Assembly: GCA_021647905.1 (NCBI GenBank)
Contig: JAKITW010000014.1
Coordinates: 1-46,465 of the forward strand
Direction: 5' to 3'
From: Desulfobacterales bacterium
Lineage (GTDB): Bacteria; Desulfobacterota; Desulfobulbia; Desulfobulbales; BM004
DNA: 46,465 bases
In this document: positions 139 through 10,196 of the stretch, piece after piece
Layout of the letters: each line of letters starts with the position of its first letter
How positions within the stretch are numbered: the stretch's first letter is position 1
Notes under the pieces: model-generated
Seen by the model: the letters and a program-made list of their open reading frames with translations, nothing else
Told to the model about the DNA's origin: nothing
Databases searched by the model: none
Made by a program: the position numbers and the translations under genes

Positions 139-158
139 GAATATGATTAAAACGCAAC

Positions 159-3100
159 TCAGGTCTTCTTGATCTTGACCGCGCATATCTTGAGTTCGGG
201 GATGCCGCAATCCGGGTCCGTCGCCGGGTTGGTCAGCTGGTTGGTGGGGGTTTCGCTAAAGTGGAAGGTCATGAAGACCACCCCCCTGGGGGACTTGTCG
301 GTGATCCGGGTCCGGGCCGTGACCTCGCCCCGCCGCGACAGGACCACCACCACCTCGCCATCCTCGATCCCGAGACCAACGGCGTCCTCCGGGTTGATCT
401 CCACAAACTCCTGATTAACGATATTGCGCAGTACCTCACATCTCCGGGTCATGCTTCCGGTGTGATAATGGTAGAGGTTGCGGCCGGTGGTCAGGATAAA
501 GGGATACTCCTCGTCAACAAGCTCCAGGGCGGGCCGGTAGGCCAGGGGGATGAACCTGCCCCGGCCGCGCGGAAAGCCGTTGGCATGCAGATACCGGGTG
601 CCTGGATGATCGGTATCCGGACAGGGCCACTGCAGGCTGCCCTGCTCCAGCCGCTGGTAGTTGATGCCGCCATAGGACGGCACCAGGCTGCTGATCTCGT
701 CCATGATCTCGGCGGGATGGTTGAAATCAAAACCGTCCGCGCCCATCCGCTGGGCAATCTGGCAGATAATCTGCCAGTCGGCCTTGATCTCGCCGGCCGG
801 GTTGACCGCCTTGCGGATCCTCTGGGCCCGCCGCTCGGTATTGGCAAACACCCCGTCTTTCTCATAGCTGCAGGCCGCGGGCAGGACCACGTGGGCAAGC
901 TGGGCGGTCTCGGTCAGGAAGAGATCCTGGACAATCAGCAGGTCAAGGCTTTTCAGGCATTTTTCCACATGGTTGGCGTCCGGGTCGCTCAACACCGGAT
1001 TCTCGCCCATGATATAAACGGCCTTTAATGTTCCCGCATCAACCGCCGGCCACATCCTGGTCAGGGTCAACCCCGGGGTCTCGGGCAGCCGCACGCCCCA
1101 GCCCTGTTCGAACCGCTGCCGCGCCGCGAGATCAGCGACCTGCTGGTAGCCGGGATAGTAAATGGGCAGTCCCCCCATATCGCAGGCCCCCTGGACATTG
1201 TTCTGGCCGCGCAGGGGATTGACCCCGGAGGAGGGCTTGCCGATGTTGCCGGTGAGCATGGCCAGGTTGGAAATGGCCTTGACATTGTCGGTGCCCTTGG
1301 AGTGCTGGGTGATACCCATGGCGTAAAGGATCGTTCCCGGTCCCTCGCTGGCGTAGATCCGGGCCGCCTCGACGATCTTATCACCATCCACCCCGGTGAG
1401 CGCGGCAACCTCGGCCAGGCCGAAGCCGGCCAGGGATTGCCTGAACTCCTCGAAATTCTCGCAGCGGCTGTCAATGAAATCCCGGTCCAGCAGCCCCTGG
1501 TCAACTATCACCCGGGCCATGCCCATCAGGAGCGGCACGTCGGTGCCGGGGTTGAGACGGAGCCAGAGGTGGGCATGGGTGCAGAGCCCGACCCGGCGGG
1601 GGTTGATAACGATCAGCTTGCCGCGGTTCTTTACCGCCCGGAGCACCTGGTGATAGATGATCGGGTGATTCTCCGCCGTATTGGAGCCAATGACCATCAC
1701 CACCCTGGCCTCGCCGATCTCATCAATGGAGTTGGTCATGGCGGCCGAACCGTAAGTTGTGACCAGACCGGTCACGGTTGGGGCGTGTCAGAGACGGGCG
1801 CAATGATCAATGGAGTTGGTCCCCATCACTGCGCGGGTAAACTTCTGCAGCAGGTAGTTGTCCTCGTTGGTGCAGCGGGCCGAGGCCAGGGCGGCGAATT
1901 GTTCGCCCTGGTTGTCCTTGAGTCTGTCGGCGATAAAGCCCAGGGCCTCGTACCAGGAAACCTTCCTGAAGGGGGCCTCGTTGCTCTCCCGGAGCAGGGG
2001 CTGGGTCAGTCGCTCCGGAGAGTTGTAGAAATCAAAGCCGAAACGGCCCTTGACACAGAGTTCGCCGTGGTTGGACGGGCCATGCGCATCGCCCTTGATC
2101 TCAAAGATGACGTTGTTCTTGGTATAGATCTCAGTGGCGCAGCCAGTGCCGCAATAGGTGCAGACCGAGTTGGTCATCTCGGCCTCGCCGGGCAGCAGCG
2201 GCAGCACCAGGTGATTCTTCATCAGGGTGCCGGTGGGACAGGCATCAACGCAGACCCCGCAGGATACACATTTATCATTAATGGTGATATCCTTGTCAGT
2301 AACCACCCCGTCCTCTTCCTTAAAGGACAGGGTTATCGCCCCGTAGGGACAGACCCGTTCGCAGCGATAGCAGAGGACGCACTTGTTGGCATCGATCCGG
2401 ATCGATGGATGATCGCTTTTTTCGTGGCACTGCAGCCTCTTGGCCGCAAGCTTGGCCGGCACCTTATGCTCAATGGCCAGGGGCCGCAGGGTACATTTGG
2501 ACAGACCGGTGCAGCCGCACTGCAAACATCTTTTGGCCTCCCTGACCGCCATTTCCACGGAAAAACCGGTTTCCACCTGGTCAAAGTCACGGATCCGTCG
2601 TTCCGGCGGCCGGGCCGGCATCGCCTCGGCCAGGGCAACGGAGGAGCCGGCAAAGTTGGCCATGTCCACGTCCTCGAACTTCTTGCCCTTGGAGAAATTA
2701 AGCCGGCCATCAGCCGGTTTGGGCACCGGGTTGCCGGTCATTTCCTTGTGAATGGCCTCGGCGGCGCGCCGGCCCGAATCCACTGCCTGGATCACGCTCC
2801 TGGCCCCGGTGGCCGCCTCGCCGCCGGCATAGATGCCCGGGACATTGGTGGCCATGGTGGAGGGATTGGCCTTGATCGCCTTTTTGGGGGACAGGTTCAA
2901 CCGGGCCTCGATCTCGCCAAAGCCGGCAAAGGCGCCGTCCGACATCTGGCCAAGGCCGTTGATCACCAGGTCGCCCTCCCAGATCAGGGACGAGCCCTCC
3001 ATGGGAATAGGTTTGCGCTTGCCCCGTTTATCCGGCTCGCTCAGCACGGTACGGGCGATCTCCATCCGCAGGCCACCGCTGTCGGTTTTGGCAAGGCCAA

Positions 3101-4304
3101 GCGGGGTCGCCATCATAAAGAACTGGACGCCCTCTTTTTCCGCCTCATCGATGTCCCGCTGTGAGGCGGGCATTTCAACCTTGGCCCGGGGATAAAGAAC
3201 CGTGACCTCAACATCCCCCAGACGGCGGGCGCTGCGAGCCGCATGGATGGAAATCTTGGTGCCGCCGATCACCATCACCTTGTGGCCGGCATTGATCCTT
3301 TCGCCGCTGTTGGCGCGCCGGAGAAAGGAGAGACCGTCCCAGATATGCGCCTTGCCGGGCACATCCAACTGGATCTGCCGGGCCATGCCGCAGGCGATAA
3401 AAATCGCCTCAAAGCCGTCGTTGCGCAGGTCGGCCAGGTTGAAATCACGGCCCCACTCCTTGCCGGTCCTGACCTGGACCCCCATACCGATGATGATCTC
3501 GATCTCGCGGTCCAGTTCGTAATCCGGCATCTTGAAATTGGGAATGCCGTAACGGGCCAATCCGCCCAAACGGGTATCAGCCTCAAAGAGATAGACCTCA
3601 TGTCCCAGCTTGCGGAGATAATAGGCGCAGGAAAGACCGGCCGGGCCGCCGCCGATAATGGCGACCTTGTGGCCGCTGGGCTCGCCCACCTCCTCGGTAA
3701 AGCCACCCTTGAGATTGGCCTGATCAACGGCAAAACGCTTGAGGTGGTTGATGGAGAGCGCTTCGTCGAGCAGGATCCGGCGGCAGCGGGTCTCGCAGAA
3801 ACGGGGACAGACCCGGCAGACAATGCCGGGCAGGGCGTTGCGCTCCTTGATCAACCGCAGGGCCGCCTCGAATTCACCCTTGGCAATCAGATTGATATAG
3901 CCCTGGACATTGATGCCGCCGGGGCAGGTAAGGGTGCAGGGGGCCTTGCAGTCGCCATAATGATGGCCGGCCAGTTCCTGCAGCCGCTTTTTGCGGTGCG
4001 CGGTCAACTCGGGGGTCTCGGTTTTGATCACCATTCCGGCGGCAACCGTGGTCCGGCAGGCCCGCTTCCGTTCCCCGTCCACCTCGACCAGACACATCAG
4101 GCAGGGCCGCGGCGAGTCTGGTTTTCCTTCCTGGTGGCAGAGGCGGGGAATATCAATGCCGACCTGGCCGGCCGCCTCGAGGATGGAGCAGCCAGCGGCA
4201 ACCCCGACCTCCCGGTCGTTTATCGTCACTGATACCAGCCCGCGGCCGGCAGCAATGGAACTGTTCTCTGTCATTGTTTCAGCCTTACGGTCAACTGTTG
4301 TCAC
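159..4304 (-). CDS. fdhA: Selenocysteine formate dehydrogenase catalytic subunit fused to FeS and FAD/NAD(P)-type domains
   Basis: Reversible formate/CO2 oxidoreductase with a Mo- or W-bis-pterin cofactor. The gene is read here as one 1381-residue protein. An in-frame UGA at 1790-1788 follows the residues IDHCARL and precedes HAPTVTG, exactly where selenocysteine sits in E. coli FdhF, so residue 839 is taken as Sec. Order of domains: 2Fe-2S ferredoxin (Cys56, 68, 71, 83); GltD-like FeS region (Cys119/123/127 and 163/166/170/174); FAD motif GGGPAG (218-223); two 4Fe-4S ferredoxin motifs before residue 700; the CTYCGTGC cluster motif from Cys715; then the molybdopterin oxidoreductase body. In the second dinucleotide motif the usual GGGNxA is replaced by GGTKIS. 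The fused flavin module suggests coupling to NAD(P)H or ferredoxin; this is inference. No partner subunit is in the window. Ordinary gene callers would split it at 1788. The start ATG at 4304 was not tested against the internal Met at residue 11. Confidence 0.9.
1750..1790 (-). promoter_or_regulatory. Bacterial SECIS element of fdhA
   Basis: Just after the UGA (complement of 1788-1790) the mRNA can form a perfect 6-bp hairpin GTGACC-GGTCT-GGTCAC (complement of 1759-1775). The apical GGUCU begins 22 bases from the U of UGA. As recalled, E. coli fdhF also has GGUCU at that spacing. This is the expected SelB binding site for selenocysteine insertion. Confidence 0.88.
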
Positions 4305-4904: not shown

Positions 4905-5798
4905 ATGAAAAAACTATTGGTTACATATCTCGGCCTGACGCTCCTGGGCCTGATGATTAACGGACCGGTAACAGCAGCCGACAAGATCCTCACCATGTCC
5001 ACCACCACCTCAACCCAGGCCTCGGGGCTGCTCGACCGGCTCCTGCCGGAGTTTGAAAAAGATACCGGCATCAAGGTCAAGGTGATTGCCAAGGGGACCG
5101 GCGCCGCCATCCGCGACGGCATGGACGGCAACGTGGATATCATTTTTGTCCATGCCAAAAACCGGGAGGAGGAGTTTGTCGTCCGGGGTTTCGGCACCAG
5201 GCGGTATGCGGTGATGCACAACGATTTCCTGATCATCGGCCCGGCAAACGACCCGGCCGGAATCAAGGGGATGAAAAATGCCGCCGCGGCCCTGGGAAAG
5301 ATCGCTACGGCCCGGGCCCTTTTCATCTCCCGGGGCGACGATTCCGGCACCCATACCAAGGAGCAGCAACTCTGGCGCGCTTCCGGAGTCAGGCTGGCCG
5401 AACAGCATCAAACCATCGTCAAAAAGGGCAAAGAGAAAAAAATAACCTCTCAGCGGCCGGCCGGTTCCAACGGCTGGTACCTGTCCATCGGCCAGGGCAT
5501 GGGCAAGACCGCCACCTTTGCCGATGAGAAGCAGGCCTACACCCTGATCGACCGGGGCACCTACATCAAGTACAGGTACGGCCGGACCCCGGCCATCGAC
5601 CTGGTCCCCCTGGTTGAAGGGGACCCGGCCCTGGCCAACCCCTACGGGATCATCCCGGTCGATCCGGCCCGGCATCCCCATGTGGATTACGATCTGGCCG
5701 AGCGCTTCGCCCGCTGGATCACCTCGTCCCGGGGCCAGAAGCTGATCAACAACTACCGGTTGATCGGCAGGCAGCTCTTTTATCCGGACGCAAGATAA
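4905..5798 (+). CDS. tupA: Tungstate ABC transporter substrate-binding protein
   Basis: Periplasmic binding protein of 297 residues that captures tungstate for the TupBC importer. An N-terminal signal peptide (MKKLL, then a hydrophobic stretch, cut near AxA at about residue 25) precedes the mature chain. The TTTSTQASGLLD segment holds the TTTS oxyanion-binding motif typical of TupA rather than ModA, and GTGAA, VHAKNREEEFV and NDFLIIGP are family hallmarks. It is first of three genes, tupA-tupB-tupC. Tungstate supply fits the nearby formate dehydrogenase, which in such anaerobes may carry tungsten. No strong ribosome site precedes the ATG. Confidence 0.93.
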   Translation: MKKLLVTYLGLTLLGLMINGPVTAADKILTMSTTTSTQASGLLDRLLPEFEKDTGIKVKVIAKGTGAAIRDGMDGNVDIIFVHAKNREEEFVVRGFGTRRYAVMHNDFLIIGPANDPAGIKGMKNAAAALGKIATARALFISRGDDSGTHTKEQQLWRASGVRLAEQHQTIVKKGKEKKITSQRPAGSNGWYLSIGQGMGKTATFADEKQAYTLIDRGTYIKYRYGRTPAIDLVPLVEGDPALANPYGIIPVDPARHPHVDYDLAERFARWITSSRGQKLINNYRLIGRQLFYPDAR

Positions 5799-5877
5799 AA
5801 AAACTTTGCAGACCCGGCGGCCCGGCCTGAGATTCCGCATTGCCGAATGACCGCCGATCAAGCCGCGAACCGAGCCC

Positions 5878-6582
5878 ATGGACCTTCTCCTTGACAGTCT
5901 GGCATCCGCTGTTCATCTGCTCCTGTCCCTGGATTCCGAGCTTTTCATCATCGTCGGGGTCTCTGTCTGGGTAAGCTGCAGTTCAACGGTCATTGCCTCG
6001 CTGATCGGCCTTCCCCTTGCCTCCCTGATCGCCTTTTCCACCTTTCCGGGCAAGCGGCTGACCATCACCTGCCTGAACACCCTGCTGGCCATGCCCACAG
6101 TGGTTATCGGACTGCTGGTCTATTCCTTTATCTCCCGCCGGGGCATCCTCGGCCCCATGGAACTGCTCTACACCCGGAAGGCGATTATCATCGGCCAGGT
6201 GCTGCTGATCATCCCCCTGGTGACCACCCTGACCATTGCCGCCGTCAACCGGATCGACAAACGCTACCGCAATACCGCCCTGACCCTGGGCGCCAACCGG
6301 TTGCAGATGGCGCTGGTCATCTTTAAGGAGGCACGGTACGGGATCATCGCCGCAATCATTGCCGCCTTTGGCCGGGTGATCGCCGAGATCGGCATCTCGA
6401 TGATGCTGGGCGGCAATGTCCGGGGCTTTACCCGCACCATGACCACGGCCATGGCCCTTGAATACGACAAGGGCGAGTTCACCCTGGCGGTGGCCCTGGG
6501 AATCGTCCTGCTCAGTCTGGCCCTTGGCATTAATCTGCTGTTTCACTTTTTCCAGGGCAGGCTGCAATCCAATGCTGTATGA
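5878..6582 (+). CDS. tupB: Tungstate ABC transporter permease
   Basis: Inner-membrane permease of 234 residues with about five or six hydrophobic segments. The cytoplasmic coupling loop that contacts the ATPase is visible as the segment around TLGANRLQMALVIFKEAR, followed by GRVIAEIGISMMLGGN, a typical TupB/ModB-like signature. It lies 79 bases after tupA and overlaps the start of tupC by 11 bases, indicating translational coupling within one operon. Confidence 0.93.
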   Translation: MDLLLDSLASAVHLLLSLDSELFIIVGVSVWVSCSSTVIASLIGLPLASLIAFSTFPGKRLTITCLNTLLAMPTVVIGLLVYSFISRRGILGPMELLYTRKAIIIGQVLLIIPLVTTLTIAAVNRIDKRYRNTALTLGANRLQMALVIFKEARYGIIAAIIAAFGRVIAEIGISMMLGGNVRGFTRTMTTAMALEYDKGEFTLAVALGIVLLSLALGINLLFHFFQGRLQSNAV

Positions 6583-7243
6583 ACTCTCCGGACTGACCCG
6601 GGTCTTTAACAGCCGGACTGTCCTCGACATCCCGGACCTCACCATGGAAAAGGGGCGGATCCATGCCCTGCTGGGGCCCAACGGTTCGGGCAAGACCACC
6701 CTGCTCAACCTGCTCGCCTTTCTCGACGCGCCGACCGCCGGGACCATCTCCTTCGGCTCCGGCCCGGTGCGTTTCACCGAGTCCTTTCTACTGCCCCTGC
6801 GGCGCCGGGTTGTGCTGGTTGATCAACACCCGATCCTCTTCACCGCGTCGGTGTACGCCAACCTCGAGTTCGGCTTGAAGATCCGCAGGATCAGGAAAGA
6901 GGTTCGCGATAAAAAGATCCGGGCCGCCCTGGAGATGGTCGATATGCAGGACTTCATCCATGCCCGGGGCCAGACCCTGTCCGGCGGCGAGACAAAAAGA
7001 ATCGCCCTGGCCCGGGCCCTGGTGCTTGAGCCGGAGGTGCTGCTCTGCGACGAACCCCTTGCCAATGTTGATGCCGGGAACCAGGAACGGATTCTGGCCA
7101 TCCTCGGCCGGATTAACACCCTGCAGCGGACATCGATAATATTCTCAAGCCATGACCAGCCCCTGGCCGAGCGGCTGGCCCGGAACAAACTCTATCTGGA
7201 TAACGGCCGCCTGGCCGCGAAGAGCGCCTCTCCCCCTTTCTGA
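6572..7243 (+). CDS. tupC: Tungstate ABC transporter ATP-binding protein
   Basis: ATPase of 223 residues that energises TupB. Motifs in order: Walker A GPNGSGKTT, Q-loop VDQHPILF, signature LSGGE, Walker B VLLCDEPLANVD, and the switch His in SSHD. The start is taken at ATG 6572 (MLYELSGL), inside the end of tupB. A longer in-frame extension to 6458 would only read tupB in another frame. It lacks the C-terminal molybdate-binding (TOBE) domain found in ModC, consistent with the Tup type. Confidence 0.93.
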   Translation: MLYELSGLTRVFNSRTVLDIPDLTMEKGRIHALLGPNGSGKTTLLNLLAFLDAPTAGTISFGSGPVRFTESFLLPLRRRVVLVDQHPILFTASVYANLEFGLKIRRIRKEVRDKKIRAALEMVDMQDFIHARGQTLSGGETKRIALARALVLEPEVLLCDEPLANVDAGNQERILAILGRINTLQRTSIIFSSHDQPLAERLARNKLYLDNGRLAAKSASPPF

Positions 7244-7401: not shown

Positions 7402-7734
7402 TTGCGAAAAAAAACCGGGCAAGCAAAAAGCAAAGAGGTAAATCTCCAGGCCGCGGCCTTTCTGGCCAAGACCATGGCCGACGAAAACCGCCTGCGAATT
7501 ATTCAATCGTTGCACAAAGGCAAAAAACCGGTCTCCCGCATTGTCGAGGAACTGGGGATTTCCCAGCCCCTGGTATCCCATCACCTCAAGGAACTCAAGC
7601 GTTCGCTCCTGGTCAAGGTTGAACGGAACGGCCCCTTTATCAACTATGAACTGACCGACCAGCGGGTCACTGAAATACTCAGCGGCCTGAGCCGGCTGGC
7701 AACCGATCTACTCACCAACCGAACCACCTTTTAA
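7402..7734 (+). CDS. ArsR-family transcriptional regulator without cysteines
   Basis: Winged-helix repressor of 110 residues. The core LAKTMADENRLRIIQSL, then VSRIVEELGISQPLVSHHLKEL (recognition helix), is classic ArsR. The TTG at 7402 is chosen as start because AGGAG lies six bases before it. The upstream ATG at 7330 sits in the AT-rich operator region and has no ribosome site. No Cys is present, so the usual ArsR/SmtB thiol metal sites are absent and the signal is unknown. It is first in an operon with two UGA-containing genes and a TauE/SafE permease; the gap to the next gene is 20 bases. Confidence 0.88.
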   Translation: MRKKTGQAKSKEVNLQAAAFLAKTMADENRLRIIQSLHKGKKPVSRIVEELGISQPLVSHHLKELKRSLLVKVERNGPFINYELTDQRVTEILSGLSRLATDLLTNRTTF

Positions 7735-7754: not shown

Positions 7755-8216
7755 ATGAAGGAACTTCTGCAGATAGTTGAAAAAATGGACCCAAAAGAGG
7801 CGATGACCGCGCTTGCCGGCGCCGTGTCCACCCTTTTCAAACATATTGACGAGAATGCCAAGCTTGACTTTGTTGTCTCCCTGATCGGTGATTCCGGCAA
7901 CGACAAGATATCGAGCATGGTCAATCTCTGACTGGCTGAATGCATGGACGAAGGTGTCGATCCAACGCGTATGTGCCAGAGCCTGGTGGACAAGGTGGCC
8001 CAATCCAGACAGCTGCAGGCGGTCACCGACCCGGAGATCCTGCCCCTGTTCGAGGACTGGTTCGAGGAGCTGGAAAACGAGGTGCTTTCCTTTGCCAGGG
8101 ATAATCATCCCGTAACCGCGAATGGCCTGGCCGAGGGTATCGGTTTGTCGCGCGCCGGGGCGCATTTTATGCTCAGCAAGCTCAAACGGGAAGGAAAAAT
8201 TCAAACAGGAGAATGA
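7755..8216 (+). CDS. Predicted novel selenoprotein with C-terminal winged-helix-like region
   Basis: Reading from ATG 7755, which has the strong ribosome site GGGAGGAG five to six bases before it, gives 58 codons and then an in-frame UGA at 7929. The same frame continues without break to a stop at 8216, 153 residues in all. A standard annotation would call either a 58-residue stub or a short gene from 7944. The UGA lies in the context MVNL-U-LAECMDEG, giving Sec59 with Cys63 four residues on and another Cys at 74. A SECIS-like hairpin follows. The N-terminal part is helical; residues about 113-150 (NHPVTANGLAEGIGLS.. LSKLKREGKI) resemble a winged helix. I do not recognise the family. It lies between an ArsR regulator and a thioredoxin-like selenoprotein, four bases upstream of the latter. 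A plain nonsense mutation is the alternative, but matching evidence in the next gene argues against it. Confidence 0.75.
7929..7964 (+). promoter_or_regulatory. SECIS-like hairpin of the first ArsR-operon selenoprotein
   Basis: After UGA 7929-7931, TGGACGA (7945-7951) pairs with TCG-A-TCCA (7957-7964, one bulged A at 7960), leaving the loop AGGUG. The GG of the loop is 25-26 bases from the start of the UGA. GG in the apical loop at this distance is the expected SelB recognition feature. Confidence 0.65.
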
Positions 8217-8220
8217 CGCC

Positions 8221-8505
8221 ATGTTGCTGGTACGCTTTTTTCTCAACGAACCGCAGGGGAAAACCTGACGCCATTTCGAGGAAATGCTGCCCAGGCTGGG
8301 CAAACGGTTTGACATCGATATTACGGTTATTTCAAAACCGCGCCACGAGTTCCAGTCGCTTGACCATGACGCCCTCGGCCTGCCAAGGGCGCCAGCGGTT
8401 ATGATCGGCGACCGGGTCATTGTGGCGGGCGCGGATATCAGCGAGGAACAGCTGGCGGCCGCGATAGGGTTGCAGCTTGCAGAGGCCGGGGACGGGCAGC
8501 CGTGA
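8221..8505 (+). CDS. Predicted thioredoxin-fold selenoprotein
   Basis: ATG 8221 follows AGGAGA by about eight bases and lies four bases after the previous stop. The frame has UGA at codon 16 (8266) and then stays open to 8505, giving 94 residues. The first strand MLLVRFFLNEPQGKT leads to Sec16 at the start of a helix (U-RHFEEMLPRLGKRF). LPRAPAVMIGDRVI has the Ala-Pro of a thioredoxin-fold cis-proline loop. Sec thus sits where glutaredoxin or thioredoxin active-site cysteines are, but without a CxxC partner, since the chain has no Cys. A redox or selenium/sulfur-transfer role is inferred. Its stop overlaps the GTG start of the permease (GTGA), so the two are translationally coupled. Truncation by a nonsense mutation is the alternative. 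Confidence 0.78.
8266..8302 (+). promoter_or_regulatory. SECIS-like hairpin of the thioredoxin-fold selenoprotein
   Basis: UGA 8266-8268 is followed by TGCCC-AGGCT-GGGCA (8288-8302), a perfect stem with an AGGCU loop whose GG is 29-30 bases from the UGA. The same AGGCU loop occurs after the UGA of the SelW-like gene at 30728. Confidence 0.72.
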
Positions 8506-10196
8506 AAAGGGCGCTCCTGAACCGTAACCCGCTGTTTTTGCTGAGCCTTGTTATCGGAATGTTGTTTTTCCCCCCGCTGCCCGGGGCAGCGGCAATGGAG
8601 GCCACCTTGTCCGGCCGGGATATCGTGGCCGGCGATCCGGTTACCGTAACCGGTTCAATCGAACCGGGCCGGGAGCTTTACGTGGTTGTCTGTACGGAAC
8701 AGACGTTCAAGGCCGCAGACTCGCCGGGTATTACGGAAAAGAAAAAACTGGCCGCGCTTTTCCAGGACACAACCATCCCGCCGGTTTATTACGTCCTGTC
8801 AAGCGACCCGCAGACCCTTGCCCTGCCGCAATCGGTTGAAAAGGGGCAGGAAGAAGGTCTGTTCGCCTTTCCGCCCTTCAGGTATACGGTGGGGGTCAAT
8901 AAAATAAAAAAATGGGCCGAGATCGACCCTGGGGTGAAAACCATGCTCGGGCCGGTGACCACCGGCGAGCAGTGGAAGTTTCTGACCTATGCCCATGAAA
9001 CCAGGTTCGGGATCAACACCATTACCAAGGAGAAACAGGCCGGCGGCGGCAACGCCAGAATGGTGCTTGCCGATTTCAGCCGGCAACCCGAACCATGGAA
9101 CCGGGGTGTCACTGTTTCGCTGGATAAGAAAAGCGGGGCCTTTTCCATTACCATGACCCCCTACGGCAACCTTGCGCCAGGCACCGAGATGGCGGTTTAC
9201 GTGAACGGCGAGCGGGCCGGCGGGTTTGTCATCAAGCCTTCGGGTTTTTATTTTTCCATTGCCAATACCTATGTGAATCCCCTGGTGGTCGTGCTGGGCA
9301 GTTTTCTGATCGGCGTGCTTTTTGTTATCATGGGCGCGGCCGGCGGTCTCTTTACCGCTGCTTTTCAGATTACGATCCTCGGCACCATGGGCCCCCTGGG
9401 GGTGAACGCCGCCAATACCATCAAACCAACCAATCTTTTTCTCACCCTGTTGTCACCGGTCACCGGGCTGGGCAACTATTTTCGCGAAAAACGGTTTGCC
9501 TGGCCGCTCGGCCTCTTTTTTGCCGCCGGCATTGTGGTTGGCGCCTTCTGGCTGGGCCCGGAATATTCAGCCAAATACCTGCCCATGAAGGCCTACAAGT
9601 TCTATCTCGGTATTGTCTGTCTGATAATCGGCATCAAGCTGTTCTGGGAAAGCCTGCCCAGCGCCATTGCCAGGAAGAAACAAACAAAGGCGATTGTCGA
9701 ACGTTTTAACCGGGCCATGAAAAAGGCCAGGCAAGAGGGCACCGCCATCCAGATCGGCAGGGTTGAGTTTGAAAAATTCAGCCTGACCCGGTTCGACATG
9801 AAGTTCTGGGGCGAGACCTTTGTGGCCCGGCCGTTGCTCATGCTGGTCAGCGGGGTGTTCATGGGAATGATCGCCTCCTCCTTCGGGGTGGGCGGCGGTT
9901 TCATGTTCATGCCGTTCATGGCCTCTGTTCTCGGCTATCCCATGTATCTGGCAGTACCCATCGCCCTGGCCGGCACCTTTGCCACCTCCCTGGGCGGGAT
10001 CAGCAGGTACACGATGATGGGGTACTCGCCGGACTGGCTGATGGCCGCCTGTATTGCCGTGGGCGCCATCGGCGGCGGCATGGTGGGGCCGAAGATCCAG
10101 AAACGGCTGCCCGAGGTCTTTCTGAAGCGGATGCTGGCCCTGGCGTTGATCATAGTATTTATGAAATACACCGGAGCGCTGCCCTTTCTGCGCTGA
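8502..10196 (+). CDS. TauE/SafE-family permease with large N-terminal extracytoplasmic domain
   Basis: Membrane protein of 564 residues. A signal-like N-terminus (hydrophobic to the AAA at about residue 31) is followed by about 200 residues of soluble, presumably periplasmic, sequence, then TauE/SafE-type membrane segments from about residue 258 (GSFLIGVLFVIMGAAGGLFTAAFQI). A charged cytoplasmic loop lies near 385-440, and a second repeat contains SSFGVGGGFMFMPFMASVLGYP. The family exports sulfite, sulfoacetate and other small anions; the substrate here is unknown. The GTG start at 8502 overlaps the stop of the thioredoxin-like selenoprotein. The operon context suggests transport of a sulfur or selenium oxyanion or a related toxic species, which is inference. 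Confidence 0.85.
   Translation: MKRALLNRNPLFLLSLVIGMLFFPPLPGAAAMEATLSGRDIVAGDPVTVTGSIEPGRELYVVVCTEQTFKAADSPGITEKKKLAALFQDTTIPPVYYVLSSDPQTLALPQSVEKGQEEGLFAFPPFRYTVGVNKIKKWAEIDPGVKTMLGPVTTGEQWKFLTYAHETRFGINTITKEKQAGGGNARMVLADFSRQPEPWNRGVTVSLDKKSGAFSITMTPYGNLAPGTEMAVYVNGERAGGFVIKPSGFYFSIANTYVNPLVVVLGSFLIGVLFVIMGAAGGLFTAAFQITILGTMGPLGVNAANTIKPTNLFLTLLSPVTGLGNYFREKRFAWPLGLFFAAGIVVGAFWLGPEYSAKYLPMKAYKFYLGIVCLIIGIKLFWESLPSAIARKKQTKAIVERFNRAMKKARQEGTAIQIGRVEFEKFSLTRFDMKFWGETFVARPLLMLVSGVFMGMIASSFGVGGGFMFMPFMASVLGYPMYLAVPIALAGTFATSLGGISRYTMMGYSPDWLMAACIAVGAIGGGMVGPKIQKRLPEVFLKRMLALALIIVFMKYTGALPFLR

Follow-up and report, generated by a model that had tools for sequence, protein, structure and literature searches.

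A 2026 review lists TsoC as a GxxU selenoprotein and Tso as a three selenoprotein operon, both credited to Haft and Tolstoy 2025 (PMC13188914). The family is catalogued in NCBIfam as NF045708 ('NEPxGxxU motif selenoprotein TsoC'), and the order of the operon is TsoR-TsoA-(TsoB)-TsoC, with TsoB being a rhodanese-DsbD-thioredoxin selenoprotein. Two groups of thioredoxin-fold proteins resemble TsoC. Thioredoxins of the MTH895/ArsE type (TIGR00412, Pfam Thioredoxin_3) are like it in size, fold, cis-Pro loop and register of the active-site loop, but have CxxC where TsoC has GxxU. SelW-like (Rdx) selenoproteins, which are likewise small and thioredoxin-fold, use CxxU or CxxC, and TsoC has Gly where their first Cys stands. 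At the level of gene neighborhoods, sulfide and sulfane-sulfur operons combine a sensor, rhodanese, DsrE, TauE, thioredoxin and SQR in varied ways (PMC9918477, PMC5823870). The bigR, cst and yrk-type operons share these parts, the sensor being a repressor, with Tso in differing combinations; Tso differs from them by its selenoproteins and a Cys-free ArsR-type regulator, and no persulfide dioxygenase was noticed in it.

The open reading frame described here lies on a 46,465-nucleotide stretch of DNA from a Desulfobacterales bacterium (contig JAKITW010000014.1, positions 1-46,465, referred to as the window) and almost certainly encodes the TsoC selenoprotein of a Tso operon that lacks TsoB (TsoR-TsoA-TsoC-TauE; Table 1). 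It has in common with the described system a full-length family match, the NEPxGxxU motif and adjacent TsoA and TsoR; it differs in that TsoB is found nowhere in the genome, a TauE/SafE gene comes next and the C-terminal Cys (alignment column 83, in the last helix, present in 51/97 members) is absent. The family is already named and catalogued, and the lone-Sec protein is therefore not new as a kind.

Table 1. Features of the Tso locus in the window
Feature	Position	Strand	Description or basis
tsoR	7402..7734	+	ArsR/SmtB-type winged-helix regulator, Cys-free; NF045707 157 bits, cut-off 115
tsoA	7755..8216	+	LULAxC selenoprotein with Sec59, Cys63 and Cys74; NF045695 227.8 bits, cut-off 170
UGA codon, Sec59 of TsoA	7929..7931	+	Read from sequence
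SECIS-like hairpin of tsoA	7946..7963	+	alifold -6.08 versus -0.02 +/- 0.11 for synonymous-codon null
Shine-Dalgarno-like AGGAGA of tsoC	8207..8212	+	Read from sequence
tsoC	8221..8505	+	94-residue NEPxGxxU selenoprotein, Cys-free, predicted thioredoxin fold
UGA codon, Sec16 of TsoC	8266..8268	+	UGA in 95/97 homologues, Cys in 1
SECIS-like apical hairpin of tsoC, UGCCCA-GGC-UGGGCA	8288..8302	+	alifold, synonymous-codon null
Cis-proline loop codons Ala57-Pro58-Ala59	8389..8397	+	Aligned to TPA of ArsE/MTH895 family
TauE/SafE-family membrane protein	8502..10196	+	Start overlaps tsoC stop; PF01925 96.6 bits, residues 264-555

The tsoC gene and decoding of its UGA codon

The frame runs from ATG (8221-8223) to a terminal UGA (8503-8505). 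The sequence confirmed the first-pass annotation, in which codon 16 is the single further in-frame UGA and the whole chain is free of Cys. The product matches NF045708 at 125.9 bits (E 4.5e-37, cut-off 45), with residues 3-86 aligned to profile positions 2-85 of 87, and its motif reads NEPQGKTU, where U is the UGA of codon 16. The tsoA stop is separated from the tsoC start by 4 nt and the tsoC stop shares nucleotides with the GTG that opens the TauE/SafE gene, so that the genes look like one operon.

A contig scan with a single protein query gave one relative, and homologues were collected by whole-genome searches. TsoC scores above the NF045708 cut-off in 64/257 genomes of the class and in 30/395 genomes sampled more widely across the phylum, and a search of viral contigs for relatives found none. 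Among 97 aligned homologues, codon 16 is UGA in all except one Cys-containing member and one fragment. The SECIS-like hairpin, located 22-37 nt 3' of the UGA, has the conserved form UGCCCA-GGY-UGGGCA and an alifold energy of -7.38, versus 0.00 +/- 0.00 in 100 synonymous-codon randomizations. In addition, Arg25, whose codon forms part of the hairpin loop, is encoded by AGG in 81/82 cases, compared with 47/353 for the Arg codons in the rest of these genes. An Rfam scan of the window gave no match at gathering thresholds. The genome carries tRNA-Sec (74.8 bits) and SelB (354 bits).

The family profile match, the retention of UGA in homologues, the hairpin, the AGG bias at Arg25 and the presence of tRNA-Sec and SelB indicate that the frame is more than a chance occurrence, and decoding of the UGA as Sec is well supported. 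A single window by itself could not have excluded a true stop codon within an accidental frame. That reading was rejected, being refuted by the conservation among homologues, which retain UGA within a protein conserved on both sides of it, and by the hairpin; with Sec machinery also present in the genome, its probability is close to nil.

The Cys-containing member at codon 16 is the only clear non-Sec homologue and comes from a tandem TsoC pair (locus L062, 5135-5392), the first copy of which has Cys at this position while the second retains Sec. Cys is also found at the aligned position in two distant homologues, and no non-redox residue was seen there. The distant TsoC-like proteins (L074, 2480-2716 on the reverse strand; L064, 4500-4721; L071, 5147-5395) score at or below the family cut-off, with motifs that include NNPMGVRC, NEPQGGRC and NDPMGKRU, and possibly form a sister family with Cys or Sec.

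Predicted fold and active-site loop

An AlphaFold2 model of TsoC has a βαβαββα thioredoxin fold (pLDDT 70, pTM 0.60), with moderate confidence since the input alignment consisted of two sequences, the window protein being paired with a single relative from the Nitrospirae. In a Foldseek search with this model the best rows were almost all thioredoxins, the first being desulfothioredoxin of D. vulgaris (E 1.8e-3), and no match had an E value below 1e-3. VIA-align gave Z scores of up to 10.3, with the SelW-like structures 2obk and 2fa8 at 8.4. A profile of 15 TsoC sequences compared with PDB sequences had the thioredoxin 1fo5 as its top hit, albeit weak (E 0.17), and hhalign of TsoC against 35 MTH895/ArsE-type proteins gave 87.6%. 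The window protein itself does not belong to TIGR00412, to which it has no match at E values up to 10. The βαβαββα topology together with a cis-Pro loop, as seen in the prediction and the PDB matches, places TsoC in the thioredoxin-fold superfamily, as the first-pass annotation had proposed, and no other fold emerged.

The Ala-Pro pair that the same annotation had read as a cis-proline loop does align with the T-P of MTH895/ArsE-type thioredoxins in the hhalign comparison (Ala57-Pro58), and the loop is highly conserved (A57 95/97, P58 94/97, A59 96/97). Sec16 is predicted to lie where helix 1 begins, within the active-site loop and beside Ala57-Pro58. The earlier assignment of Sec to the active-site position thus stands, with its register refined: both the 1fo5 alignment and the MTH895/ArsE hhalign put Gly13 on the first Cys of CxxC and Sec16 on the second. 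Judged from these alignments, the Cys that usually attacks first is replaced by Gly13, and selenium occupies the second CxxC position (GxxU).

This arrangement resembles the TxxC/TxxU of peroxiredoxins, whose reactive Cys is the second CxxC position, and the combination of a missing first Cys with Sec at the second could point to TsoC as a peroxidase-like enzyme or a general thiol-disulfide reductase acting in oxidative stress, its selenenic acid being reduced by a partner thiol. Selenols are good peroxide scavengers, and the DsbD and thioredoxin domains of TsoB could supply electrons. However, TsoC has no NCBIfam or Pfam peroxiredoxin match, and the genes downstream of TsoB-less operons (see below) indicate sulfur compounds rather than peroxide, making a role of this kind unlikely.

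The chain contains no resolving Cys, as had been noted from the sequence, and a thioredoxin-fold protein with one selenium as its sole redox atom would be a simple system in which to study how selenenyl sulfides react. A lack of Cys is common in the TsoC family, 22/97 members being Cys-free. The window protein belongs to a 17-member clade (support 0.90) in which many proteins are Cys-free; the clade contains single copies from TsoB-less operons as well as first copies of tandem pairs. From the sequences, the lone Sec is thus a recurrent trait of the family. Column 83 was considered as the site of a family resolving Cys and rejected: the window protein has no Cys there, and a position near the end of the last helix is probably distant from Sec16.

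Neighboring genes and Tso operon types

TsoR is encoded immediately 5' of tsoA in 54/54 testable loci and is Cys-free in 28/54. The window gene starts either at TTG 7402, behind AAGGAG, or at ATG 7330. The window TsoR has no Cys with which to sense persulfide in the manner of BigR or CstR, and this argues for caution in a sulfur interpretation of the locus.

TsoA has Cys at positions 63 and 74 in 54/54 loci and a UGA-encoded residue at position 59 in 53/54. A single-sequence model is helical with low confidence (pLDDT 53), and residues 107-150 give weak winged-helix matches (PF13412, E 8e-4), pointing to a C-terminal winged-helix-like segment; it would be unusual for a protein that binds DNA to contain Sec. 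At L093 (2446-2892), in a second Tso operon of that genome, a TsoA copy has Arg in place of Sec.

The TauE/SafE protein has an N-terminal extension of ∼230 residues, and a protein of the same architecture directly follows tsoC in one further locus (L069, 5122-6837). The latter locus also has an ArsM-like methyltransferase near TsoC, which, in combination with an ArsR/SmtB-family regulator upstream and MTH895/ArsE-type proteins as the nearest thioredoxin relatives, could be taken to mean that TsoC is an ArsD/ArsE-like carrier or chaperone delivering a metalloid or selenium species (arsenite, selenide or mercury) to a membrane exporter. This is improbable given that a lone selenol is a poor chelator unless TsoC dimerizes or pairs with TsoA, that the ArsM-like gene is present in one locus only and that TsoR, being Cys-free, has no As(III) site of the usual kind.

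TsoA and TsoC occur together in 55 loci, of which 33 have TsoB between them and 22, including the window, have none. The best match to TsoB in the window genome (98% complete, 118 contigs) scores 26.9 bits against a cut-off of 805. The two operon types differ in what follows them: among loci with at least 3 kb visible, an SQR-like, DsrE-like or TauE gene is downstream in 15/20 TsoB-less versus 2/25 TsoB-containing operons (Fisher p 5e-6), whereas a VTT-domain membrane protein is downstream in 1/20 versus 17/25 (p 1.4e-5), the p-values ignoring shared descent. The SQR-like flavoprotein, at 93 bits, falls far short of the 525 bits set as cut-off for the SQR family, and the DsrE-like proteins are under theirs. 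The TsoB-less operon type linked to sulfur genes may be new, the remainder representing the known family. A small protein of ∼90 residues also recurs downstream of TsoC (L076, 4750-5019; L088, 6613-6996); its L076 copy matches nothing in Pfam or NCBIfam.

Proposed chemistry and genomic surroundings

With a probability that we place a little short of even, TsoC would act as a single-selenol thioredoxin-fold protein whose Sec16 forms selenenyl sulfides with sulfane sulfur or thiols that are then resolved by a partner. Persulfides, polysulfides or mixed disulfides would be attacked by Sec16 at their sulfane sulfur or at a thiol. Since TsoC has no Cys of its own, a second selenol or thiol would then resolve the selenenyl sulfide; candidates are TsoA (Sec59/Cys63/Cys74), the DsbD/thioredoxin part of TsoB in operons that have it, and small thiols. 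TsoA is the favored putative partner because it shares the operon with TsoC wherever this could be examined and combines invariant Cys63 and Cys74 with a nearly invariant Sec59. The TauE/SafE protein might carry a sulfur oxyanion or a sulfane species across the membrane, and the overall task of the operon in anaerobic bacteria would be to deal with reactive species of sulfur (or selenium).

A role in reactive sulfur metabolism is favored because rhodanese, which forms part of TsoB, and DsrE, SQR and TauE, which accompany TsoB-less operons, also occur in operons known for sulfide and sulfane sulfur. It is conceivable, though doubtful, that TsoB-less operons, with TsoR-TsoA-TsoC ahead of SQR-like, DsrE-like or TauE genes, represent a distinct selenium-dependent reactive-sulfur module of anaerobes, in which TsoA, as a helical Sec/Cys protein, serves the turnover of a Cys-free single-selenol TsoC. 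The existence of two operon types offers a concrete, testable lead from the Tso selenoproteins to reactive sulfur species.

Just 5' of tsoR, the window encodes a substrate-binding protein, a permease and an ATPase that resemble a tungstate/molybdate ABC transporter (4905-7243). Farther upstream, on the reverse strand, lies a formate dehydrogenase-like gene (147-4304) with an in-frame UGA at 1788-1790 (CARLU).
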